DNA of 64,000 bases from Micromonospora sp. WMMD1120 (lineage in GTDB: Bacteria; Actinomycetota; Actinomycetes; Mycobacteriales; Micromonosporaceae). Shown piece by piece: positions 3,927-51,481 of the stretch (position 1 is the stretch's first letter; each line of letters starts with the position of its first letter). The position numbers and the translations under genes were made by a program. The notes under the pieces are model-generated. The model had not been told where the DNA came from and made no database searches. It worked only from the letters and a program-made list of their open reading frames with translations. The stretch lies in NCBI RefSeq assembly GCF_029626235.1, contig NZ_JARUBO010000005.1, forward strand, positions 2,078,501-2,142,500, in the 5' to 3' direction.

Positions 3927-3974
3927 CCCGGCTTGGGGAAAGGCCCGACTTCCGGGAAGCCGAGTCGATCAAGC
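3891..3974. repeat. 84-bp double-stem palindrome, family C
   Basis: Outer arms GCTTGATCGACTCGG (3891-3905) / CCGAGTCGATCAAGC (3960-3974) and inner arms GGAAGTCGGGCC (3913-3924) / GGCCCGACTTCC (3942-3953) are perfect inverted repeats separated by a 17-base apex. It lies seven bases beyond the epoxide hydrolase stop and could act as its terminator. It is longer and more regular than the simple terminators in this window. Confidence 0.85.
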
Positions 3975-3980
3975 GCCGGG

Positions 3981-5165
3981 TCAGGTGAGGCTGGCAAAGA
4001 AGGCGCGGATGTCGCTCACCAGCACGTCGGTGGCCTGGTGCGCGGCGTAGTGACCGCCGTCGGCGCCGCCTGCGCCGCGCCCGTCCGCGCCGCGCCCGCC
4101 TGCGCCGCGCCCGTCCGCGCCGTCGGCGTCCGTTCCGTACGCGGTCCAGCGGACGATGTTCGCGTGGTCCCGGTCGGCGAAGCGCCGGATGGACTGGAAG
4201 TCGCCGGGGAGCATCGCCAGCGCGGTCGGTACGGTGGTCGGCTCGGTGGGTGGCTGCTCGGCATGCGCGTCCTCCCAGTAGAGCCGGATCGCTGACGCGG
4301 CGGTGCCGGTGAACCAGTAGAGCGCCACGTTCGCCAGGACGAACTCGGCGTCCAGGCTCTCGTCGAAGAGTTGCGCGTGCCAGGCGAGCAGTCCCACCGG
4401 CGAGTCGGCCAGCCCGAAGGCCAGGGTCTGCGGCTGCTGGCTGTGCACCTGGTTGAAGGAGAACTTGTTTTCGTAGAACCACTGGAGGTGGGCGAGCGCC
4501 GCCTGGTCCGCCTCGGAGAGCCCGGCGAACTCGGCCGGGTCGCCGGAGGGGAACGAGAAGAGTTGGGTGACGTGGACGCCCCGGACGTGTTCGCCGTCGA
4601 TCCGCCCCAACTCCGGCGAGATCATCGAACCGGCGTCGTTGCCGACAGCGCCGTAGCTGTCGTACCCCAGTCGGTTCATCAGCTCGGCCCAGGCGCGGGC
4701 GATGCGGAACCGGTTCCAGCCGGCGCTGCGGGTCGGCCCGGAGAAGCCGAAGCCGGGCAGCGACGGGATGACCAGGTGGAAGGCCGGCGCGTCCGGGTCG
4801 GTCGGCTCGGTGAGCGGACCGATCACGTCGAGGTATTCCAGCACCGACCCGGGCCAGCCGTGGGTGAGCACCAGTGCGGTGGCGTCCGACCGGGAGGACC
4901 GGACGTGCAGGAAGTGGATGCGCCCGCCGTCGATCTCGGTGACGAACTGTGGGTGGGCGTTCAGCCGGGCCTCGACCGACCGCCAGTCGAACCCGTCGCG
5001 CCAGTGCTTGGCGAGGGTGCGGACCCGGTCGGCGCTGATCCCGTAGTCGTCGCCGGCGCCGGGCAGTTCGGCGGGCCAGCCGGTGCGGTCCAGCCGTGCG
5101 GCCAGGTCGTCGAGGGCGGTCTGCGGGATCTCGACGCGGAACGGACTGATGGCGGCGTCGGCCAT
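3981..5165 (-). CDS. Epoxide hydrolase (alpha/beta-hydrolase with EHN domain)
   Basis: 394 residues. An epoxide-hydrolase N-terminal domain (about 5-110; PFRVEIPQTALDDLAARLD) precedes an alpha/beta-hydrolase core. The oxyanion HGWPGS is at 102-107, the nucleophile elbow GNDAGS at 175-180 with Asp177, and the catalytic His372 is in GGHYAAHQ. Family members open epoxides through an Asp-alkyl ester. A Gly/Ala/Asp/Arg low-complexity insert at about residues 346-370 sits just before the catalytic histidine and is built from near-identical DNA repeats. The TetR gene is divergent 87 bases away, with a palindrome between them, which suggests local control by substrate. The physiological substrate is unknown. 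Confidence 0.9.
   Translation of the reverse strand: MADAAISPFRVEIPQTALDDLAARLDRTGWPAELPGAGDDYGISADRVRTLAKHWRDGFDWRSVEARLNAHPQFVTEIDGGRIHFLHVRSSRSDATALVLTHGWPGSVLEYLDVIGPLTEPTDPDAPAFHLVIPSLPGFGFSGPTRSAGWNRFRIARAWAELMNRLGYDSYGAVGNDAGSMISPELGRIDGEHVRGVHVTQLFSFPSGDPAEFAGLSEADQAALAHLQWFYENKFSFNQVHSQQPQTLAFGLADSPVGLLAWHAQLFDESLDAEFVLANVALYWFTGTAASAIRLYWEDAHAEQPPTEPTTVPTALAMLPGDFQSIRRFADRDHANIVRWTAYGTDADGADGRGAGGRGADGRGAGGADGGHYAAHQATDVLVSDIRAFFASLT
4056..4130. repeat. In-frame GC-rich tandem repeat inside the epoxide hydrolase gene
   Basis: Imperfect 15-18 base units of the type CCCGTCCGCGCCGCG / CCCGCCTGCGCCGCG are repeated about four times in frame. They encode alternating ADGRG / AGGRG runs at residues 347-370 of the hydrolase. 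Confidence 0.75.
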
Positions 5166-5220
5166 GATGGCTCCTCAAGCTGGAACGGAATGCTTCGCTC
5201 TGTTGCGACAATAGCAGACC

Positions 5221-5235
5221 GGAATGGTCCGTTCC
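5221..5235. promoter_or_regulatory. Putative TetR operator
   Basis: GGAATGG-T-CCGTTCC is a 15-base inverted repeat with one mismatch in the 87-base divergent region, 17 bases upstream of the TetR ATG. Placement and symmetry fit an autoregulatory site also controlling the epoxide hydrolase gene. Confidence 0.5.
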
Positions 5236-5252
5236 GCTGTTAGGATGGACCC

Positions 5253-5906
5253 ATGCCGAGTTCTTCCCACAGGACAGCCGCGCCGCTGGCCGGCCGCCGC
5301 GCCCAGGCCGCCCGCAACGACGGCGTCATCCTCGACGCCGCCCGCGCGGTCTTCCTGGATGACCCGAAGGCGCCGATCGCCGCCGTCGCCGACCGCGCGG
5401 GCGTCGGCATCAGCGCGCTCTATCGGCGGTACGCGGGCAAGGAGGACCTGCTGCGCCAGCTCTGCCACGACGGGCTGCGCCGGTACGTCGCCGAGGCCGA
5501 GGAGGCCCTCGCCGAGCCGGACGACTGGACCGCCTTCACCACCTTCCTGGCCCGGGTGGTCGACGCCGACGTGCACTCGCTCACCGTGCACCTGGCCGGC
5601 ACCTTCACCCCGACCGAGGAGATGGGGCGGGACGCGCGCCGCGCCGGGGAGCTGGCTACCGCCCTGTTCGACCGGGCGCGGGCCAGTGGGCGACTGCGCC
5701 CCGATGCCGTCGTACCGGATCTGGGGTTGCTGTTGGAGGCGTGCGCCGCGGTGCGCGTACCCGATCCGGAGCGCACCCGGGAACTGCGCCGCCGGCAGCT
5801 CGCGGTGTTGCTGGCCGGGCTGTCGACGGCGTCGGACGCGGACCCGCTGCCCGGCCCGCCGCCGGCGGCCGGGGAGTTCGACTGGCGGTGGCGGCGCTCG
5901 GAGTGA
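5253..5906 (+). CDS. TetR/AcrR-family transcriptional regulator
   Basis: 217 residues with the N-terminal TetR helix-turn-helix at about residues 24-65: ILDAARAVFLDD, AAVADRAGVGISALYRRYAG, KEDLL. The rest is an all-helical ligand domain without a recognisable effector signature, ending in a proline-rich PLPGPPPAAGEFDWRWRRSE. It is divergent from the epoxide hydrolase, so repression of that gene and induction by an epoxide or related compound is a reasonable inference. ATG 5253 gives a normal-length N-terminus. Confidence 0.87.
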   Translation: MPSSSHRTAAPLAGRRAQAARNDGVILDAARAVFLDDPKAPIAAVADRAGVGISALYRRYAGKEDLLRQLCHDGLRRYVAEAEEALAEPDDWTAFTTFLARVVDADVHSLTVHLAGTFTPTEEMGRDARRAGELATALFDRARASGRLRPDAVVPDLGLLLEACAAVRVPDPERTRELRRRQLAVLLAGLSTASDADPLPGPPPAAGEFDWRWRRSE

Positions 5907-5921
5907 TGGGCGTCACGCGGT

Positions 5922-5948
5922 AGAGTTGAGCGGAATACGCTCAACTCT
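5922..5948. promoter_or_regulatory. HAIR-type HspR operator of clpB
   Basis: A perfect 27-base palindrome: AGAGTTGAGCG, gaata, CGCTCAACTCT. Its core TTGAGC-N7-GCTCAA matches the known HAIR consensus CTTGAGT-N7-ACTCAAG in spacing and in most bases. It lies 44 bases before the clpB ATG and hspR is present at 446, so HspR repression of clpB is strongly supported. Confidence 0.88.
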
Positions 5949-5991
5949 GGTTGTGTCCAATCCAGTGGACAACGCCGATCCGGGGGAGCCC

Positions 5992-8577
<2,586 letters not shown>

Positions 8578-25112: not shown

Positions 25113-27544
<2,432 letters not shown>

Positions 27545-40031: not shown

Positions 40032-40652
40032 TCAGCGGCGGGAGGCGGCGCGACGGTGTGCCCGGCGGCGCAGCCACCGAATCCCCTCCAGGCCGAAAGT
40101 GATCACCACCGAGAGCCCCACGCCGACCAGCACCCCCTTGACCGGCTCCTGTTCGAAGGCCAGCCCGCCGAAGTAGCCCAGCAGCCCGCAGTAGAGCGCC
40201 CAGGTGACCGTCGCGATGCTGTCGTACAGCAGGAACGCCCGGCGCGGATAGCCCACCGCGCCCATGGTGAGGGTGACGGCGGTCCGGCCGCCGGGCACGT
40301 AGCGGGCGGTCGTCAAAATGATCCCGCCGCGCCGGTCCACAGCGCGGCGGGCCCAGTCGGAGCTGGCCCGGCGGCGGCTGCCGTCCGGCAACCGCGCCAG
40401 CCGGTGCGCCCCTCCACCCCGCCCGATGGCGTACGAGATGTGGTCACCCACCAGCGCGCCGAGTGCGGCGCTGACGATCACCAGGGTCAGGCTGGGATGT
40501 CCCGCGCTGGCCGACAGCACCCCGGCGGTGATCACGGCCGCCTCGCCCGGCACCGCGGGAAAGAACGCGTCGACAGCGGTGAGGCCGAAGATCACCAGGT
40601 ACACCCATGGCGAGGTGACCGTCCCACGCAGGAGGTCGAGCAGGGCGTCCAT
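40032..40652 (-). CDS. DedA-family membrane protein, short form 2
   Basis: 206 residues: PWVYLVIFGLTAVDAFFPAV, PGEAAVITAG, GDHISYAIGRGGG, RYVPGGRTAVTLTMGAVGYP, GLLGYFGGLAFEQEPVKGVL and a basic C-terminus RRRAHRRAASRR. It is a paralogue of the protein at 37385 and converges on the response regulator with 24 bases between stops. DedA proteins are implicated in lipid flipping or membrane potential maintenance. Conservation between the two copies extends along the whole length, so this is probably a duplication inside the lineage. Confidence 0.88.
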   Translation of the reverse strand: MDALLDLLRGTVTSPWVYLVIFGLTAVDAFFPAVPGEAAVITAGVLSASAGHPSLTLVIVSAALGALVGDHISYAIGRGGGAHRLARLPDGSRRRASSDWARRAVDRRGGIILTTARYVPGGRTAVTLTMGAVGYPRRAFLLYDSIATVTWALYCGLLGYFGGLAFEQEPVKGVLVGVGLSVVITFGLEGIRWLRRRAHRRAASRR

Positions 40653-40665
40653 GCCCCCATGCTCG

Positions 40666-40848
40666 GTGGCTCGACGACGGTCGGTGGCGCTTCACGGACA
40701 TTGCGTCGACCGGTCAGCCCTGCGCCGCCTCAATCGCCCTCGTCAACCGGTACTGCCGGGACTGCTGGTGTTCGGCGCCTGCGCGATCGCGGCCGTCGTG
40801 TTGCTCATCGCCTCTCGCCGCCAGCCTCCGGATAGCGGGCGCCGTTGA
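40666..40848 (+). CDS. Possible small single-span membrane protein (60 aa)
   Basis: GTG 40666 opens a 60-codon frame with a basic N-terminus (VARRRSVALHGHCVDRSALR), one good membrane span ([20 protein letters not shown]) and a basic tail ending [10 protein letters not shown]. Composition looks like a real small membrane protein, and it fills the gap between two minus-strand genes. Against it, there is no ribosome-binding site and the last 44 bases overlap the convergent gluconolactonase gene. Confidence 0.3.
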   Translation: MARRRSVALHGHCVDRSALRRLNRPRQPVLPGLLVFGACAIAAVVLLIASRRQPPDSGRR

Positions 40849-41773
40849 AGGTGACCCGCAACGCGTACACCGACGTGCCGGCGGTGATGAACAGGTGGTT
40901 GCGTTTCGGGCCACCGAATGTGAGGTTGGCAACCGGCTCGGGCAGCAACAGCTTGCCGATGAGGGTGCCGTCCGGATCGAAGCAGTGCACACCGTCCCAG
41001 GCCGCGGCCCACACACGTCCGGCGTCGTCGAGACGGAGGCCGTCGAATCGGCCGAAGTCACACTCGGCGAAAATTTTCCCCTGGTCGAGGGTGCCGTCGC
41101 TCAGGACGTCGAAGACGCGGATGTGACTGGGGTTCTGCCGCGTATCCACGATGTAGAGCTGCCGCTCGTCCGCAGAGAACGCCAGGCCGTTGGGGCGGCA
41201 GAAGTCGGTCGCCACGATGCGCAGGTCGCCGCTGGCCGGGTCCAGGCGGAACACGTAGCAGGCCCCGCCGAACTCGCTGTCGCCCTTGTTGCCCTCGTAG
41301 TCGCCCTGGATGCCGTAGATCGGGTCGGTGAACCAGATCGTGCCGTCGGCGCGGACGACAACGTCGTTGGGACTGTTGAGCCGTTTGCCGTCGAAGCGGT
41401 CGGCGAGCACGGTGATCGTGCCGTCGTGCTCGGTCCGGGTGACCCGCCGGTTGCCCTGCTCGCACGTGACGAGCCGGCCCTGACGGTCTACCGTGTTGCC
41501 GTTGGCGTAGCCCGAGCCGTGGCGGTAGACGCCGACGGCGCCGGTGGTTTCCTCCCAGCGCAGCAGCCGGTCATTGGGGATGTCGCTCCACACCAGGTAG
41601 CGGCCGGCCGGGAAGTACGCCGGCCCTTCGGTCTTACGCGCGCCGGTGTGCAGCCGTTCGACCACGAAGTCGCCGTCGCAGGTGCGGAACCGCTCGTCGA
41701 GAAGGTGGAACTCGGCGGGAAGAGTGTCGACCATCCGTGCCTCCAGTCTCGGATCAACGTTCGGTTGAACCAT
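40805..41773 (-). CDS. SMP-30/gluconolactonase/LRE-family hydrolase
   Basis: 322 residues forming a six-bladed beta-propeller of the SMP-30/gluconolactonase family: [80 protein letters not shown] and [19 protein letters not shown]. The metal-binding Glu, Asn and Asp of the family are present (EGP, SPNDV, PNGLAF). Such enzymes open sugar or other lactones. ATG 41773 overlaps a GTTC-GGTT-GAAC palindrome; ATG 41734 is an alternative start. It is divergent from an Lrp-type regulator 62 bases away, its probable controller. Confidence 0.9.
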
Positions 41774-41835
41774 CTTTATGCAGAACCTAGTATGGTCAGC
41801 ACGTCAATAGCTGAACCACATTCGAGGATGCGCGA

Positions 41836-42330
41836 GTGGTAGACGACGTCGACCGGGCGCTGCTGGCACACCTGCAGCACGACGCCACCCAGTCCTACGC
41901 GGCGCTGGGCAAGGCGGTCGGGCTGTCCGCCGGCTCGGCCCACGACCGGGTACGCAAGCTGCGCGAACGTGGCGTGATCCGGCGGACCACCGTCGACGTC
42001 GATCCGGCGGCCGTGAACCGGGGTGTCTCGGCCTTCGTGATGGTCAGCGCGAACTCGTGGATGGGGGACGCTCCCACCCGCGACGGGCTTGCTGCCATCC
42101 CGGAGATCCAGGAAGCACACGTCATCGCCGGTTCGGCATCGCTGCTGCTGAAGATCCGTACCGCGACCACCGAAGACCTGCAAGCGGCGCTGCGCCGCAT
42201 CTTCGGCATCGACGGGGTGACCGGCACCCAGGCCATCGTGGTGTTGGAGACGTTCTTCGAACGTTCGGTGAGCGTGCTCGACCAGGACACCGAACCGGAT
42301 CAGGCGGACGTCGACACGCCACCGCGGTGA
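41836..42330 (+). CDS. Lrp/AsnC-family transcriptional regulator
   Basis: 164 residues: AsnC-type HTH (VDDVDRALLAHLQHDATQSY, AALGKAVGLSAGSAHDRVRK) and a RAM ligand-binding domain (IPEIQEAHVIAGSASLLLKI, GIDGVTGTQAIVVLETFFER). These regulators form octamers and respond to amino acids or related metabolites. It is divergent from the gluconolactonase gene, which is its likely target. The 3' end overlaps the convergent PurA-like gene by 31 bases. Confidence 0.9.
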   Translation: MVDDVDRALLAHLQHDATQSYAALGKAVGLSAGSAHDRVRKLRERGVIRRTTVDVDPAAVNRGVSAFVMVSANSWMGDAPTRDGLAAIPEIQEAHVIAGSASLLLKIRTATTEDLQAALRRIFGIDGVTGTQAIVVLETFFERSVSVLDQDTEPDQADVDTPPR

Positions 42331-43583
42331 GACGCCAGGGCCGGTGAGGTGAGCAGCGGCCCGTACGGGCGCTTGTCGTCTGCGGTGGGCCCGTGCGAGG
42401 TCAGCACGACGGGCGTGCCCAGCTCCACGCCGACCGTGGTCACCCAGTCGGCGGGCGGGTCGTCGTAGACCGGACGCGAGCGCAGCAGGCGGGCGGTCAG
42501 CGCGGCCTGCCGGTCCAGGTCGCCGGGCGGGCCGGGGACGAGCCGGTCGGTGCTGTCGTAGTGCCGGCAGATCCGCAGGTCGGGCCCGGCGAGATCGAGG
42601 TGGGTCAGGGCCAGGCCGTCGACGCCACCGGCCACGTCGAGGGCGTACCGGTGGGCGACGGCGTCGAAGTGACCGAACCGGAACGCGCCCTGCCACTGGT
42701 TCGTCGGGTTGTGCCGGTCCAGAAACGGCAGGGCCGGGTCCTCGGTCACCAGCGGACCGGGTCCGTGTCGGGTGGTGATCACGCGCAGCACCCCGATCCG
42801 GGTCACCTCCCCGGGCAGACCCGCCTCGGCGAGCAGCGCGTCGACGTTGGCGAACGTGGTGGTGCTCCAGGTGGTGTACGGGTGGAAGCCGTGCCACTCG
42901 TCGAGCAGCACCCCCTGGGCGCCCTCGAAGACGCAGGTCCCGGCGCGTAGCGCCCCGGCGAGCCAGCCGCCGTCGACGATCTCCACCCGTTCGGCGAACC
43001 CGGTGAACGCGGGCAGGCAGTCCTCGACCGGCGGCGCGTCCAGCGGGCCCAGCTCGGCGGTCAGCCGGTCGCGCAGATTCGTCAACCGGCGACGCAGCGC
43101 GGCCCTGTCGTGGCAGTCGGCGACCCGGGGCGCGTCGGCGGGGTGGGCGAGGCCGTACGCGACGGCCTCGCCCACCCCCAGCCCGCAGGAGCCGTGCCGG
43201 TCGGCTCCCCGGCCGATCTCCCGGGCCCGGTTGGCGGCCCGGTGGTACGGGGTGGCGAGCAGCGCCCGCCCGTCGACTGTCAGCCGGTCCAGCGCGTCGG
43301 TCACCCCCACCGTGGCGAGATGGTCGGCCTCGGCGGCCAACGCCAGCGGGTCCACCACCACGTGCCGCGTCAGGTGCGTACCGACGCCAGGGTGGAACGT
43401 GCCGGCGCCGAACTGCGCGAACGTGTGGTGCCGCCCGTCGCGCAGCACGACGTTGTGTGCCGCCTGCGCGCCCCCGTTGAAGCGGACCACCGTGTGCACC
43501 GGGCGGGTGGCGCAGAGCCAGTCCACGACCGTGCCCTTGCCCGCGTCGCCGTACCCGAGGTCGACCACCGCCACGTGGTTCAC
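42300..43583 (-). CDS. Divergent adenylosuccinate-synthetase-like protein
   Basis: 427 residues with a PurA fold but clearly distinct from the housekeeping PurA at 26255. The N-terminal motif is VVDLGYGDAGKGTVVDWL: the catalytic-type Asp and the GKG loop are kept, but the usual GDEGKGK has become GDAGKGT. The IMP/His segment GGHNAGHT is GGAQAAHN, keeping one His. RIGVLRVITTRHGPGPLVTE and NQWQGAFRFGHFDAV parallel PurA segments for GTP and substrate binding. It may ligate a different amine or nucleotide. GTG 43583 overlaps the vWA gene's stop by four bases, and it is the last gene of a four-gene operon. Function unproven. Confidence 0.8.
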   Translation of the reverse strand: MNHVAVVDLGYGDAGKGTVVDWLCATRPVHTVVRFNGGAQAAHNVVLRDGRHHTFAQFGAGTFHPGVGTHLTRHVVVDPLALAAEADHLATVGVTDALDRLTVDGRALLATPYHRAANRAREIGRGADRHGSCGLGVGEAVAYGLAHPADAPRVADCHDRAALRRRLTNLRDRLTAELGPLDAPPVEDCLPAFTGFAERVEIVDGGWLAGALRAGTCVFEGAQGVLLDEWHGFHPYTTWSTTTFANVDALLAEAGLPGEVTRIGVLRVITTRHGPGPLVTEDPALPFLDRHNPTNQWQGAFRFGHFDAVAHRYALDVAGGVDGLALTHLDLAGPDLRICRHYDSTDRLVPGPPGDLDRQAALTARLLRSRPVYDDPPADWVTTVGVELGTPVVLTSHGPTADDKRPYGPLLTSPALASHRGGVSTSA

Positions 43584-44539
43584 AGCCGGGTCACCCCGCC
43601 GGTGGTGTCCCGGAACGCCGGCAGCGTGGACACCTCGGCCCGCCGCCCCCGGCCGAGCCGGGCCAGCGCCCTGGACACGGTGCCGGTGGCGCCGGAGCCG
43701 GCGCGGTCCAGCTGACGCAGGCCCTCGTCCAGGTCGATGGCCTGCTCGCCGAGGCCGATGGTGAGCGCGATGGTCTCGCAGACCGCGTCCAGGTCGTCGA
43801 GCACGACGGCGTTCTGGCCGAGCAGGTCCCGCCAGAAGTCGAGCACCGTCGCGTTGCCGGCGTGGCTGCTGCCGGCGGGTAGCAGGTAGTAGGTGTCCCA
43901 ACGACGGGTGACCTCGTCGACGACCTGCCGCAGCGACACGTCCTCGGCCAGCTCGTCGCCGATCAGCCGGGCCACCTCCCGGGCCTTCACCCGCTGGTAC
44001 GCCAACTCGTCGCCGATGATGAACAGGTAGCCCCGCCGGCCGCGCTTCTCCCAGCTGTCGGTGACGGTGTGCCGGGCCATGAAGTACATGGCCAACTCGT
44101 ACGACTCGGTCATCTGTCCGCCACCACCGCCTTCCAGGACGATCCGGCCGAGGTCGTCGTCCATCCGGTTGTCCGACTCGAACTGGCCCACCTGCAACGG
44201 CACCCGGTCGCAGGTGGCGTCCCCGATCGCGCCGAACATGATCTGCGGGTCGCTGGCGTAGCCCTGCCGTTGCAGCAGCCCGAGCAGTTGCGGCAGCTTG
44301 GTCTGCAGGACCCGGGGAACAGTGCGCATCGAGCCGGTCACGTCGAAGAGCACAGCGATCGGCGTCGACCGGGGGTGCTCGGCGGAGTCACGGCTCTCCC
44401 GGCTCGCGCCCCGGGGGTCGAGCGCGGGGTGCACGGTGCGCGCCCCGCTGTCGCTGTAGGAGAACGCGCTGCGACCGGTGGAGCGCCGGTAGCGGTCGGC
44501 GGCGTCGTACACGTCGGTGGACCAGATTCCACTGCCCAT
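43580..44539 (-). CDS. von Willebrand factor A-domain protein
   Basis: 319 residues with a vWA domain from about residue 60: IAVLFDVTGSM is a MIDAS-type metal site (Asp66, Thr68, Ser70), then GDATCDRVPLQVGQFESDNR, the Gly-rich metal loop VLEGGGGGQMTESYELAMY and FIIGDELAY. Residues 1-58 are a Ser/Arg-rich disordered leader. There is no signal peptide, so it acts in the cytosol, probably as a Mg2+-dependent protein-binding module. It lies nine bases after the J-domain kinase gene and overlaps the PurA-like gene by four bases. The set resembles TerY-like vWA/kinase cassettes in general layout only. Confidence 0.85.
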   Translation of the reverse strand: MGSGIWSTDVYDAADRYRRSTGRSAFSYSDSGARTVHPALDPRGASRESRDSAEHPRSTPIAVLFDVTGSMRTVPRVLQTKLPQLLGLLQRQGYASDPQIMFGAIGDATCDRVPLQVGQFESDNRMDDDLGRIVLEGGGGGQMTESYELAMYFMARHTVTDSWEKRGRRGYLFIIGDELAYQRVKAREVARLIGDELAEDVSLRQVVDEVTRRWDTYYLLPAGSSHAGNATVLDFWRDLLGQNAVVLDDLDAVCETIALTIGLGEQAIDLDEGLRQLDRAGSGATGTVSRALARLGRGRRAEVSTLPAFRDTTGGVTRL

Positions 44540-44548
44540 GACAGCTCC

Positions 44549-45520
44549 TTAGGGGGTGAGGGTGAAGGGTCGGAAGGTGCGTGGCCCGTAGAGCCGGTCC
44601 AGCACCTGGTCGAGGTCGCGCAGCAGGGCCCAGGCGTCGTCGGGCCGGGCGTCCAGGGCCCGTTGCTGGCAGCCCTGCGCGAAGGCGTGCAGCTCACCGG
44701 GTGCGCGCGAGCCCATCAGCCAACTCATGCAGCGGCTGGCCAGCGCGATGTCGGTGCCCGGCCCGCACTGCCGCTTCCGGACGACCTCCGGCGGGTACCA
44801 GTCCTCGTGGCCGGGCACCAGCGCCGGGACCGTGCTGCCGACCGGGGTGGAGAAACACCAGTCGACAAGCACCACGCCGTGGGCGTCCGGCTCGATCAGC
44901 ACGTGTCGCGGCAGGACCGCGCCGTGCACGATGCCCGCGCGGTGGGCCAGGCCGAGCACCACCAGCAGCCGCCGCCACATCCAGGCCACGTCCCGGGCGT
45001 CCAACCCGTCGGGGTACGCCCGCCGCACCTCGTCGAGATCGTGCAGGTTCGGCGCGGTGGCGAGCACCGTGACCCGCCGTTGCGCGCCGGTCGCGGCGTC
45101 ACGGTGCGGGAACTCGTCGACGAGCCGGGGCACGTACGGCAGGTAGCGCGGGTCGCCGCGCTCGGCGATCGTGTGCAGGGCGTGCGCCTCGCGGGCCATC
45201 AGGTCGTTGTCGGTGGGTCGCCGGGGGAGCTTGAGCAGCCGGTCGTCGCCCACGTCGTAGAGGTCGGCCAGGTCGCCCGAGTGGGCGGGCGCGCCGATCC
45301 GGTAGTCGCCGAGGACGGTGACCTGGCGGGCCCGCCACCGGGTGGTGACGTGGACGAACGCGTCGAGGGCTTCGGCGCGTACCCCTGCATCGGCCGGCAG
45401 GCGGTCGGGGTGCAGGGCCGCGACCAGCTCGCGGTAGCGGTGGGCCGGCTGGTCCGTGCCGAACAGGTCGGCGTCGGTGCGGGCCGCGGCGACCACGCCG
45501 ATGGCCTCCGCCGCCCTCAC
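44549..45520 (-). CDS. J-domain-like fusion to a degenerate protein kinase
   Basis: 323 residues from GTG 45520, which overlaps the Nudix gene's stop by four bases. Residues 15-65 look like a J domain: ADLFGTDQPAHRYRELVAAL followed by HPDR with the diagnostic HPD at 37-39. A kinase fold follows: Lys97 in RLLKLPR, Glu111 in MAREAHAL, then a catalytic loop IVHGAVLPRHVLIE where HRD is HGA and the usual Asn is His, and DWC instead of DFG (Asp220). The changes suggest a pseudokinase or an atypical phosphotransferase. DELHAF-like helices close the C-lobe. It probably works with the vWA protein encoded next. Confidence 0.78.
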   Translation of the reverse strand: MRAAEAIGVVAAARTDADLFGTDQPAHRYRELVAALHPDRLPADAGVRAEALDAFVHVTTRWRARQVTVLGDYRIGAPAHSGDLADLYDVGDDRLLKLPRRPTDNDLMAREAHALHTIAERGDPRYLPYVPRLVDEFPHRDAATGAQRRVTVLATAPNLHDLDEVRRAYPDGLDARDVAWMWRRLLVVLGLAHRAGIVHGAVLPRHVLIEPDAHGVVLVDWCFSTPVGSTVPALVPGHEDWYPPEVVRKRQCGPGTDIALASRCMSWLMGSRAPGELHAFAQGCQQRALDARPDDAWALLRDLDQVLDRLYGPRTFRPFTLTP

Positions 45521-46272
45521 CGCACCGTCTCCTCGCGGGCGGGGCGCAGCAGCGCCGGGTGCAGCAGCCGGGCGTCGCCGGCCCGGTAGAGCCGGGCGCG
45601 CGGGCCGCCCCGGCTGCCACCGCGCTCGGTGTGGGCGCCGGTGCTCTCCACGAAGCCCGGCACCGAGAGCACCTTGCGGTGGAAGTTGCCGGCGTGCAGC
45701 GGGTGACCCCACACCGTCTCGTAGACGTCGCGCAGCTCGCTGACGGTGAACTCGGCGGCCAGGAAGCGGGTGGCGAGCGGCGTGTACTCCAGCTTGGACC
45801 GGGCCCGCTCCAGCGCGTCGTCGATGATCCGGCCGTGGTCGAAGGCGAGCTGCCGGCTGGTCAACGCGGTGACCGGCAGCCACATCGCCTCGTCGGCGTC
45901 GCTGCCGGCGGCCGTGTCGGGCAGGTCCGGGGCGAACGCGAGGTGGGCGACCGAGACGACGCGCATCCGCGGGTCGCGGTCCGGAGCGCCGTAACTGCCC
46001 AACTGCTCGAGGTGTACGCGGCGCAGCTGCTCGCCGCCGAGCCCGGTCTCCTCGGCCAGCTCCCGCCGCGCGCCGGTGGTCAGGTCCTCGTCGGGGCGGA
46101 CGAAGCCGCCGGGCAGAGCCCAGTGCCCCACGAAGGGTGCCTGACCACGCCGGATCAGCAGCAGGTGCAGTGCGCCCTCGCGGATGGTCAGCGCGACAAC
46201 GTCGACGGTCACCGCGACCGCCGGATAGTCCCGCGGGTCGTACGCGGCCAGGAACTCCTGCTCGTTCAGCAT
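45517..46272 (-). CDS. NrtR-like Nudix-domain transcriptional regulator
   Basis: 251 residues. The N-terminal Nudix domain contains an intact box (GX5EX7REUXEEXGU) starting at Gly56: GGFVRPDEDLTTGARRELAE then ETGL. A C-terminal winged helix at about 165-230 (FTVSELRDVYETVWG, HPLHAGNFHRKVL) is the DNA-binding part of NrtR-type regulators, which sense ADP-ribose or related metabolites and often control NAD metabolism. The intact box means it may also hydrolyse its ligand. It is the first gene of a four-gene operon and its start is overlapped by TCTCA inverted repeats, so autoregulation is likely. The actual ligand is unknown. Confidence 0.85.
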   Translation of the reverse strand: MLNEQEFLAAYDPRDYPAVAVTVDVVALTIREGALHLLLIRRGQAPFVGHWALPGGFVRPDEDLTTGARRELAEETGLGGEQLRRVHLEQLGSYGAPDRDPRMRVVSVAHLAFAPDLPDTAAGSDADEAMWLPVTALTSRQLAFDHGRIIDDALERARSKLEYTPLATRFLAAEFTVSELRDVYETVWGHPLHAGNFHRKVLSVPGFVESTGAHTERGGSRGGPRARLYRAGDARLLHPALLRPAREETVR

Positions 46273-46277
46273 GTCGC

Positions 46278-46310
46278 TCTCATTCTGAGAATATCTCTTG
46301 GTGAGAACAA
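46278..46310. promoter_or_regulatory. Candidate operator of the Nudix-regulator operon
   Basis: TCTCA-ttc-TGAGA (46278-46290) lies 6-18 bases before the Nudix ATG and covers its ribosome-binding region. A second half-site, TTGGTGAGAACAA, lies at 46298-46310. The TGAGA units repeat on both strands in this AT-richer 33-base stretch. Confidence 0.5.
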
Positions 46311-46350: not shown

Positions 46351-47310
46351 TCAGCGCAGCAGACCCGCCAGATGCGGTCGACCGCGGGAGTCGTGCAGCG
46401 CGAACCCGCCCTCCGGCAGCAGGGCGAAGTTCACCGTGCTCGGCAGCGGCACGGGCAGCTTGAACGCCACCTCGACCGTGTACGCGTCCGGCAGTCGACT
46501 CTCCAGCGCGGCCAGGCAGCGCGCCTTGCTCCACATGCCGTGCGCGATCGGCCGGCGGAACCCGAACAGCCGCGCCCCGAGCCGAGAGGTGTGGATCGGG
46601 TTGTGGTCACCGGAGACCCGCGCGTACCGCGTGCCGACGCTGGGTTCCACCCGCCAGCGGGCGGTGCCGGCCGGCGCCTCGGGGCGATCCCCCCGCGCAC
46701 CGCCGCCGGACGTGCCGTCCCGACCCAGGTACGTCGAGACGCCGCGCCAGACCTCCTCCCCGTCGACCGAGGCGGTCAGCACCACGTCCACCTGCCGCCC
46801 CCGGTCGTGCGGGCGCAGGTTCTCCGCGTACGTGCCGAAGTCGAGGACCTCGTCGGCGGTGATCGGGCGGTGCACGGTGATCCGGTTGCCCACGTGCACC
46901 AGGCCGGTGAGGGGCAGCGGGAACGCCGGAAGAGTCATCAGCCGCAGGGCCAGCGGAAATCCCAGGACGTGCGGGAAGGTCCCCGGCAGTCGATCGGTGA
47001 GCCGGAACCCGCACACCCGGTCGTAGTCCGCCAGGCGTGCCCGGTCGACAGTCACCCCGCCGACCGCCAGCCGGACCGCCGGCAGGCCGGAACCGCGCCG
47101 CCGACCGCCGAGCCCCGGTAGCGCGCCGAGCAACGCCCGCCGGTTGAGCGCCCCGACCGCCGGCATTCGCGGCACGTCGATCCGGGTCCGGCCGTCCGCC
47201 GCCGGGTCGACAGCCGCGGCCAGGGTCTCCGCCGTCAGCGTCTCGGTCGGGCCGTCGATCAGCTCGTGCAGGGAAAGGTCGTCATCCGGCTCCCGCGCTT
47301 CCCGCATCAC
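46351..47310 (-). CDS. MaoC-like (R)-specific acyl dehydratase, HtdX-like
   Basis: 319 residues with a double hot-dog layout. The N-half contains LTGLVHVGNRITVHRPITAD; the C-half has the hydratase motif YARVSGDHNPIHTSRLGARL with Asp235 and His240, then RRPIAHGMWSKARCLAALES. These enzymes hydrate or dehydrate 3-hydroxyacyl thioesters. The gene order with the FabG4-like and FadA2-like genes equals mycobacterial Rv0241c-Rv0242c-Rv0243 (htdX-fabG4-fadA2). The start overlaps the FabG4-like stop by four bases, so the two are coupled. Confidence 0.9.
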   Translation of the reverse strand: MMREAREPDDDLSLHELIDGPTETLTAETLAAAVDPAADGRTRIDVPRMPAVGALNRRALLGALPGLGGRRRGSGLPAVRLAVGGVTVDRARLADYDRVCGFRLTDRLPGTFPHVLGFPLALRLMTLPAFPLPLTGLVHVGNRITVHRPITADEVLDFGTYAENLRPHDRGRQVDVVLTASVDGEEVWRGVSTYLGRDGTSGGGARGDRPEAPAGTARWRVEPSVGTRYARVSGDHNPIHTSRLGARLFGFRRPIAHGMWSKARCLAALESRLPDAYTVEVAFKLPVPLPSTVNFALLPEGGFALHDSRGRPHLAGLLR

Positions 47311-50047: not shown

Positions 50048-51481
50048 ATGAGGTACGTGACGACGATCCCCAACGTGCTGGCCAGCCGGTACGCCTCGCC
50101 CGAATTGGTCGCCCTCTGGTCTCCGGAGGAGAAGGTGCGGATGGAGCGGCGGCTCTGGCTCGCCGTGCTGCGCGCGCAGCGCGACCTGGGCGTGCCGGTC
50201 CCGGACGGGGTGGTCGAGGCGTACGAGCGGGTGCTCGACCAGGTCGACCTGGCCTCGATCGCGGAGCGCGAGCGGGTCACCCGGCACGACGTGAAGGCCC
50301 GGATCGAGGAGTTCAGCGCGCTCGCCGGGCACGAGCACGTGCACAAGGGGATGACCTCGCGGGACCTCACCGAGAACGTCGAGCAGCTCCAGGTGCGCGC
50401 CTCGCTGGAGCTGATCCGGGACCGCGTGGTGGCCACCCTCGCCCGGTTGGCCTGGCTGGCGTACGAGCACTCCGAGCTGGTCATGACCGGTCGCTCGCAC
50501 AACGTGGCGGCGCAGGCCACCACGCTGGGCAAGCGCTTCGCGTCGGCGGCGGAGGAGCTGCTGATCGCGTACCAGCGGCTGGAGGAGTTGATCGCCCGCT
50601 ACCCGCTGCGCGGCATCAAGGGACCGGTCGGCACCGCCGCCGACCAGCTCGACCTCTTCGACGGCGACGCCGACAAGGTGGCCGAGCTGGAGCGTCGGGT
50701 CGCCGAGCACCTCGGCTTCTCCCGGGTGCTGGACAGCGTCGGGCAGGTCTACCCGCGCTCACTGGACTTCGACGTGCTGGCCGCGCTGGCCCAGACCGCC
50801 GCCGCGCCGTCGTCGCTGGCCACCACGATCCGGCTGATGGTCGGCCAGGAGTTGGCGACCGAGGGCTTCAAGCCGGGCCAGGTCGGCTCCAGCGCGATGC
50901 CGCACAAGATGAACACCCGCTCGTCGGAGCGGGTGAACGGCTTCGCGGTGATCATCCGGGGCTACCTGTCGATGGTCGGCGAGCTGGCCGGCGACCAGTG
51001 GAACGAGGGGGACGTGTCCTGCTCGGTGGTCCGTCGGGTGGCCCTGCCGGACGCCTTCTTCGCCGCCGACGGCCTCTTCCAGACCTTCCTCACCGTGCTG
51101 GACGAGTTCGGCGCGTACCCGGCGGTGATCAACCGGGAGCTGGAGCGGTTCCTGCCGTTCCTCGCCACCACGAAGATCCTGGTGGCGGCGGTCCGGCGGG
51201 GTGTCGGCCGGGAGGTGGCCCACGAGGTGATCAAGGAGCACGCCGTCGCGGTGGCCCTGGCGATGCGGGAGAAGGGCAACCCGGAGAACGACCTCTTCGA
51301 CCGGCTGGCGGCGGACGGCCGGCTCGGCCTGTCCCGGGCCGACATCGACACCCTGGTCGCCGACCGCAGCGCCTTCGTGGGCGCCGCCCAGGCCCAGGTG
51401 GCCGCGATCACCAGCCGCATCACCAAGGTAGTAGAAACCCACCCCAACGCCGCAACCTACACCCCACCCCCCATCCTCTAA
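50048..51481 (+). CDS. purB: Adenylosuccinate lyase
   Basis: 477 residues of the fumarase/aspartase superfamily. It releases fumarate from SAICAR and from adenylosuccinate, acting twice in purine synthesis. The superfamily signature GSSAMPHKMN lies at 280-289 with catalytic Ser on a mobile loop, and the His-containing TSRDLTENVEQLQ and TGRSHNVAAQATTLGKRF motifs are clear. ATG 50048 has a GGGGTG-type site; GTG 50057 is an alternative that gives the VTTIPNVLASRYASPE start common in relatives. The last 17 codons switch to A- and C-ending, G-poor codons (VVETHPNAATYTPPPIL). Confidence 0.95.
   Translation: MRYVTTIPNVLASRYASPELVALWSPEEKVRMERRLWLAVLRAQRDLGVPVPDGVVEAYERVLDQVDLASIAERERVTRHDVKARIEEFSALAGHEHVHKGMTSRDLTENVEQLQVRASLELIRDRVVATLARLAWLAYEHSELVMTGRSHNVAAQATTLGKRFASAAEELLIAYQRLEELIARYPLRGIKGPVGTAADQLDLFDGDADKVAELERRVAEHLGFSRVLDSVGQVYPRSLDFDVLAALAQTAAAPSSLATTIRLMVGQELATEGFKPGQVGSSAMPHKMNTRSSERVNGFAVIIRGYLSMVGELAGDQWNEGDVSCSVVRRVALPDAFFAADGLFQTFLTVLDEFGAYPAVINRELERFLPFLATTKILVAAVRRGVGREVAHEVIKEHAVAVALAMREKGNPENDLFDRLAADGRLGLSRADIDTLVADRSAFVGAAQAQVAAITSRITKVVETHPNAATYTPPPIL

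Follow-up and report, generated by a model that had tools for sequence, protein, structure and literature searches.

The window analysed here is a stretch of 64,000 nucleotides from Micromonospora sp. WMMD1120 (contig NZ_JARUBO010000005.1, forward-strand positions 2,078,501 to 2,142,500). An initial annotation, made from the letters of the window, had described four minus-strand genes in it as one operon encoding a Nudix regulator, a J-domain pseudokinase, a von Willebrand factor A (vWA) protein and a PurA-like enzyme. When the coordinates of the open reading frames were checked in the window, the four genes, their order, strand and junctions were all found as described. The frames follow one after another on the minus strand from 46272 to 42300 and encode an NrtR-type regulator with a Nudix domain and an NrtR winged helix (46272-45517, 251 residues), a J-domain protein with a pseudokinase (45520-44549, 323 residues, GTG start), a vWA-type protein (44539-43580, 319 residues) and a PurA-like enzyme (43583-42300, 427 residues, GTG start). 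The Nudix/kinase and vWA/PurA-like junctions are 4-base overlaps (GTGA) and 9 bases separate the kinase and vWA genes, a layout that supports a single transcription unit. Since the genes recur together in other genomes and share a conserved upstream motif, as described below, we conclude from the comparisons that they are a real unit, beyond chance.

The PurA-like enzyme and the vWA protein

Among the proteins of the window, the PurA-like enzyme matched the Pfam family Adenylsucc_synt with an E value of 2.1e-57. Two genes of the genome matched this family (PF00709), namely canonical purA (6.9e-183) and the PurA-like gene (4.0e-57), so the latter is a second, diverged copy. It missed both NCBIfam equivalog cut-offs for PurA (148.3 versus 402 bits and 118.5 versus 395.6 bits) and scored 38.7 against a cut-off of 300 with the PurZ profile. 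In a tree of 93 sequences, from which most actinobacterial near-copies and sequences of 280 residues or fewer had been dropped and for which the bootstrap had not fully settled, the PurA-like clade was separated from PurA and PurZ with support of 99/99. PurZ, whose branch is very long, fell outside it.

The alignment of 174 clade members showed which parts of PurA are kept. The catalytic residues Asp13, Lys16 and His41 are present in 170, 171 and 172 rows, respectively, the remainder being gaps, and Gln224 and Thr239 of PurA are also kept. In contrast, the aspartate-binding loop TTGRxRR of PurA reads xWQGxFR. According to the excerpted text of PMC8342488, R303 of PurA contacts both O2' of inosine monophosphate (IMP) and aspartate; at this position the clade has Gly in 163 of 174 rows and Arg in 2. 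R305 and R143 are replaced in nearly all rows, with Arg at the R143 position in only 3 of 174 (21 rows have gaps, and this stretch aligns poorly). V273 has become His, and G302 Gln, in 174/174 rows each. As aligned, the enzyme has thus been shown to keep the phosphoryl-transfer residues of PurA but not its aspartate site. Relatives in phages are annotated 'PurA-like adenylosuccinate synthetase' or '2-aminooxy adenylosuccinate synthetase'; the latter, also used for phrog_1211, is a widespread name for the clade, and the phrase was absent among the literature matches listed.

Neither the window protein nor any of 15 members gave a Pfam vWA match for the product of the third gene, and a sequence search of the PDB gave no support for this identity. 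The name vWA is therefore used for a DxTGS motif, of the metal ion-dependent adhesion site (MIDAS) type, together with a GDE motif downstream of it. In 209 distinct rows the D occurs in 209, and the T, G and S in 208 each. The protein begins with Met-Gly: Gly2 was found in 197/197 rows that reach column 2. These counts come from profile-aligned rows and leave uncounted those trimmed at the N terminus (12/209 at column 2); most of those inspected likewise begin with Met-Gly. No column is more conserved than Gly2; seven others are also without exception, all of them within the domain, and the rest of the N-terminal tail is variable. With such a start, the glycine would be exposed once Met is removed. 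The protein also matched phrog_2971 (2.2e-75), for which PHROGs gives no function.

The regulator and the J-domain pseudokinase

The product of the first gene matched the Pfam families NUDIX (4.7e-21) and NrtR_WHD (2.3e-11), in agreement with the Nudix-type regulator initially proposed, although it missed the NCBIfam NtrR equivalog cut-off (141.5 versus 400 bits). An intact Nudix box is found in the window protein and in 88 of the 119 distinct rows from actinobacteria; seven more have a loop one residue shorter, and in 24 the box is degenerate, as it is in every row scored from plasmids (6) and viruses (7). The Nudix protein of 11 of 22 relatives is a distant homologue (about 30%) encoded downstream or on the opposite strand, and the winged helix was matched in 2 of 9 such distant relatives.

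Immediately 5' of the Nudix gene, at 46307-46278 on the minus strand, lie two inverted repeats forming the motif TTCTCA-N4-GAG-N3-TTCTCA-N3-TGAGA. With the spacing kept constant, 63 of 78 named actinobacterial loci have this motif ahead of their Nudix gene with no more than one substitution and 74 have it with no more than three, compared with 0/3900 mononucleotide shuffles. The sole exact occurrence of TTCTCANNNTGAGA in the genome is that upstream of the operon's Nudix gene, which is consistent with a repressor that regulates itself and acts chiefly on this operon. Allowing one mismatch, the operator core occurred at eight further places in the genome, two of them within the operator itself. 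The motif, an inverted repeat ahead of the operon as in the NrtR family, is a putative operator.

The second protein has a Pfam Pkinase match of 4.2e-4, which lies under the Pfam cut-off, and Pfam DnaJ was matched in 5 of 15 relatives. Its predicted structure consists of a helical N-terminal domain followed by a kinase fold, with a model confidence (pLDDT) of 89. When the model was compared with the PDB, PknA and PknB were topmost, and a DnaJ-PKA chimera stood at rank 8. The HPD motif of J domains is kept in the window protein and in 111/111 actinobacterial rows with letters there; in two viral rows its Pro is changed. The J domain is assigned from this motif together with the DnaJ matches, the helical domain of the model and the chimera. 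The window protein has Ala in place of the Asp of the kinase HRD motif; aligned actinobacterial rows have Ala or His there (117/117), plasmid rows have Gly or Ala (7 rows), and two viral rows retain the Asp. The DFG Asp is present in 105 actinobacterial rows and missing from 12 others and from 7/7 plasmid rows. The replacement of the HRD Asp bears out the earlier claim of a catalytically impaired kinase, and the protein is best read, from these motifs, as a pseudokinase scaffold.

Occurrence of the unit

Relatives of the vWA protein (best 80 of 501) were used in assembling 126 actinobacterial loci, 102 chosen by vWA and 24 by the PurA-like enzyme; some genomes occur twice, and the series L026-L047 and L048-L127 overlap in some genomes. 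The vWA and PurA-like genes were both present in 126/126 loci, the Nudix gene in 121 and the kinase gene in 118. Of the five loci in which no Nudix gene was found, four are cut contigs and one is L180. Among the kinase misses, two were cut at contig edges and six were true absences (L035, L046, L047, L103, L122, L179). The genes upstream of vWA in L046 and L047 were considered as diverged kinases and ruled out; they encode an AFG1-type ATPase and a pyridoxal phosphate enzyme. Because it is absent from six loci, the kinase can be dispensed with, and the core is vWA plus the PurA-like enzyme rather than a kinase complex. Of the four-gene set originally proposed, this pair stands as the core and the kinase does not stand as a needed part.

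The profile of the PurA-like enzyme, searched against 296 genomes of the class, gave at least 283 bits in 28 genomes and at most 202.4 bits for all other matches listed. In 28/28 of these carriers the vWA gene adjoins the PurA-like gene, and thus the scattering of enzyme genes away from vWA, which the initial annotation had named as refuting the unit, was not seen. In the genome of L181 the PurA-like match is in two pieces. Two genomes (G507 and G533) have two PurA-type matches each, the best with E values of 6.5e-47 and 4.6e-51, which were counted as canonical. The vWA gene is present in 8 of 15 genomes listed of the same genus and in 23 of 150 genomes of the order. Phylum-wide searches with vWA, in which at most 7 and at most 5 candidates per genome were scored, matched only G000 and G015 (2/296; 2/396), and beyond the groups named here the unit is therefore rare.

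The four-gene block of the window is flanked by a MaoC gene (46351-47310) and, at the other end, by a DedA gene (40032-40652). MaoC and DedA flank the block in 7/7 Micromonospora carrier relatives examined, and they are directly adjacent to each other in 6 of 7 non-carriers. One of these six (G098) retains short PurA-like fragments between MaoC and DedA, and the seventh non-carrier (G084, locus L270) has a whole Nudix gene, kinase residues 1-138 and a PurA-like piece but no vWA match. These remnants indicate that the block was lost in at least these two. In other genera the flanks differ, and no further gene cluster stays beside the block. Ten flanking proteins from seven relatives were unrelated to it, including transporters, peptidases, reductases and an AMP-binding enzyme; the family of the last recurs, farther away, in Micromonospora flanks. 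The genes therefore recur together while their flanks change, which was the outcome expected of a real unit when a neighbourhood search was first suggested.

The same window also contains canonical purA (26255-27544) and purB (50048-51481). Genes for an Lrp/AsnC regulator and an SMP-30/gluconolactonase, at 40805-42330, separate the PurA-like gene from DedA; neither had a match in the corresponding stretches of the 7 Micromonospora carriers compared.

The block, for which the initial annotation suggested a search across actinobacteria, does recur there but is not confined to them. Twenty-one plasmid records matched vWA. Plasmids of Rhodococcus opacus and Tsukamurella carry kinase, vWA, PurA-like and Nudix genes; in those of Agrobacterium vitis, Acetobacter persici and Rhizobium leguminosarum a divergent Nudix gene precedes the kinase, vWA and PurA-like genes; and a Variovorax plasmid carries kinase, vWA and PurA-like genes. 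Among the 40 records listed, out of 91 plasmid records matching the enzyme, the 13 with at least 45% identity are the 13 with the best vWA matches.

In phages, vWA was found in 207 of 50,697 records, 188 of them Mycobacterium phages. The gene order in phage Ghost is kinase (gp260), vWA (gp261), gp262 and PurA-like (gp263), gp262 being a small gene between the vWA and PurA-like genes (L239, 11017-11283). The Rhizobium and Vibrio phages examined have vWA and PurA-like genes and gave no kinase match. PHROGs 2971, 1211 and 3043 cover the vWA, PurA-like and kinase proteins of phages; they list the proteins singly, and no system is described there. At 50 IMG/VR loci chosen by vWA, PurA-like was present in 47 and the kinase in 37. 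The set chosen by the PurA-like enzyme comprised 74 loci, of which 73 were mapped, L208 having already been mapped in the other set; vWA was present in 67 of the 73 and the kinase in 52, and in five of the six vWA misses the stored stretch ends less than 0.9 kb from the enzyme. The pair lies on one strand in the viral maps, with its order reversed in L337 and L338. Some viral loci are near-copies (L199/L219, L216/L217, L222/L223 and L227/L228/L231). Terminase searches on the large contigs gave only weak matches (1 of 15 and 2 of 14); the contigs are taken as viral on the strength of IMG/VR, a terminase next to L192 and the isolate phages.

Several viral loci place the pair beside genes of nicotinamide adenine dinucleotide (NAD) metabolism. 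Contig L204 carries, in this order, an NrtR gene (winged helix 7.2e-23), a NAMPT gene (8.8e-51), the vWA, PurA-like and kinase genes and a CTP_transf_like gene whose product is read as a nicotinamide mononucleotide adenylyltransferase (NMNAT). NAMPT was found at 7 of the 50 viral loci chosen by vWA (two being copies of one sequence), with one further partial match, and an NMNAT-like gene at 2. NAMPT was also found at 10 of the 73 loci chosen by the PurA-like enzyme, some of which are contigs of the first set. In a Vibrio phage, the second gene upstream of vWA is a NADAR gene, and the Rhizobium phage copy (L241) has PRTase_3, HAD and NUDIX genes (3929-6265) within about 5 kb.

Discussion

The reading that we favour, tentatively and with somewhat less than even confidence, is that the unit is an accessory, NrtR-repressed and NAD-linked nucleotide-modifying module, in which the enzyme, paired with the vWA protein, would link a purine activated by GTP to some amine other than aspartate. 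We infer its chemistry, ligand and role as follows. The Nudix protein would keep the operon repressed until a ligand resembling ADP-ribose or NAD accumulates. The enzyme would then activate a purine-type C6 carbonyl with GTP, in the fashion of PurA, and an amine distinct from free aspartate would take up the activated purine. As an activator, lid or amine donor, the vWA protein would bind the enzyme, probably by way of the Met-Gly segment at its N terminus, and the J-pseudokinase may be a non-essential scaffold able to recruit Hsp70. The product would serve nucleotide or NAD homeostasis during stress or phage infection. It is plausible that the enzyme makes or removes a modified nucleotide, and the earlier idea of a nucleotide-responsive system was right in outline, the link now seen being that to NAD metabolism through the viral NAMPT clusters. 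Control by a chaperone-like complex, also proposed in the initial annotation, is hypothetical.

Like members of the NrtR family, the regulator combines Nudix and winged-helix domains and has an inverted-repeat motif upstream, and NAMPT is adjacent in some viral contigs. As excerpted, PMC4666351 describes an impaired Nudix box in NrtR regulators of NAD metabolism, and the excerpts of PMC4666351 and PMC6800001 give ADP-ribose or NAD as ligands of NrtR proteins. In contrast, the window protein has an intact box, and the genes of its operon are not NAD genes.

These differences, along with other observations, weigh against the favoured reading. An intact Nudix box is unusual for NrtR repressors and could mean a hydrolase function. 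There is no NAD gene in the window operon; NAMPT and NMNAT profiles built from the viral proteins match no actinobacterial or plasmid locus compared, and NAMPT was not seen within the stored flank of 63 of the 73 viral loci. As most loci show no NAD gene, the clustering is a lead to function, not proof. Because of an indel in the alignment of the aspartate-binding loop, it is uncertain exactly which residues correspond in that stretch. The pair is also not without exceptions: a Rhodovulum plasmid (L237, 6104-9026) has Nudix, kinase and vWA genes and no PurA-like match, the viral loci L202, L229 and L230 lack PurA-like and L350 lacks vWA, and the vWA match of L175 is cut short. The vWA gene of L237 is annotated 'TonB-dependent receptor'.

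An alternative that we consider unlikely, though it fares better than those that follow, is NAD repair or salvage. Here the enzyme would act not on IMP but on a dinucleotide or NAD-derived nucleotide, such as the hypoxanthine analogue of NAD, with vWA as a cofactor. The viral clusters of NrtR, NAMPT, vWA, PurA-like and kinase genes, in some cases with NMNAT, speak for it, and the loss of R143, an arginine that reaches the 5' phosphate from the second PurA subunit, could leave space for a group linked through pyrophosphate. However, most copies, including that of the window, have no adjacent NAD gene, and the loss of R143, in a stretch that aligns poorly, fits other ligands as well.

Somewhat more doubtful is a stress or conflict module resembling TerY-P, in which vWA and the pseudokinase would form a switch and a signal nucleotide made by the enzyme would trigger a response to phages or other stress. 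The patchy presence of the block, its precise gain and loss, its remnants and its carriage on plasmids would suit such a role. The theme of vWA, kinase and nucleotide enzyme appears in the excerpted texts of PMC11090510 and PMC9503650. The TerY-P triad (vWA, PP2C and a kinase with a zinc ribbon), as excerpted from PMC11090510, likewise has vWA and kinase-fold proteins in one operon; here, however, the kinase is impaired and bears a J domain, the PurA-like enzyme is near-constant, and no PP2C was found among the six window neighbours or the ten flanking proteins of seven relatives. The HAD, PRTase_3 and NUDIX genes close to the Rhizobium phage copy recall the biosynthetic part of Ter systems (PRTase and HAD in the excerpts of PMC7824862). 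Against this, no effector gene is conserved alongside in the loci compared, lytic phages are themselves carriers, and the flanks tested in the window are metabolic genes and an Lrp-type regulator. A classical defence system was rejected: PADLOC gave no match for vWA or the PurA-like enzyme, a weak one of the kinase to MkoA (9.5e-11) and one of the Nudix protein to PDC-S07 (6.7e-6).

A narrower form of the favoured reading, to which we give less credence still, takes Gly2 of the vWA protein as the amine. After removal of Met it would occupy the site in which PurA holds aspartate, and the enzyme would attach to it a purine nucleotide activated by GTP, forming a nucleotide-protein conjugate. This is suggested by the invariant Met-Gly start together with the loss of the aspartate site. 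If true, the conjugate would be a new post-translational modification derived from the chemistry of purine biosynthesis, under an NAD-sensing repressor.

We regard as improbable a role like that of PurZ (succino-aminodeoxyadenylate synthase), supplying a modified deoxynucleotide for phage DNA. PurZ is likewise a diverged PurA-family enzyme carried by phages, many phages have the present enzyme, and ribonucleotide reductase is nearby in some. However, PurZ of phiVC8 has Ser at position 13, whereas the clade has Asp in 170/170 rows with a letter there; both the profile score and the position of PurZ in the tree separate the two, and the excerpts of PMC12884076 and PMC8342488 mention no vWA partner for PurZ. 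Moreover, the unit sits on bacterial chromosomes, and a link to NAD would not be expected. An ordinary second adenylosuccinate synthetase for times of purine shortage is very improbable: the fold and D13, K16, H41, Q224 and T239 are shared with PurA, but the aspartate-binding loop and R303 are replaced across the clade, the scores lie far under the PurA equivalog cut-offs, canonical purA is 15 kb off, and the enzyme, unlike PurA, has a near-constant vWA partner.

Conflict systems with vWA, Nudix and kinase modules are treated in the excerpts of PMC9503650, PMC7159879, PMC7824862 and PMC11090510, but the present combination is not among them. Among the literature matches listed we found no published description of this gene set, as had been supposed at the outset. 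What emerges is a clade of purine enzymes with a rewritten amine site, which has a vWA partner and an NrtR-type regulator common to actinobacteria and proteobacterial plasmids, the pair occurring also in lytic phages. If the favoured reading is true, the unit would represent a reaction new to the metabolism of nucleotides or NAD, perhaps the conjugation of a protein with a nucleotide, and would give a role to genes present in 188 mycobacteriophage records.

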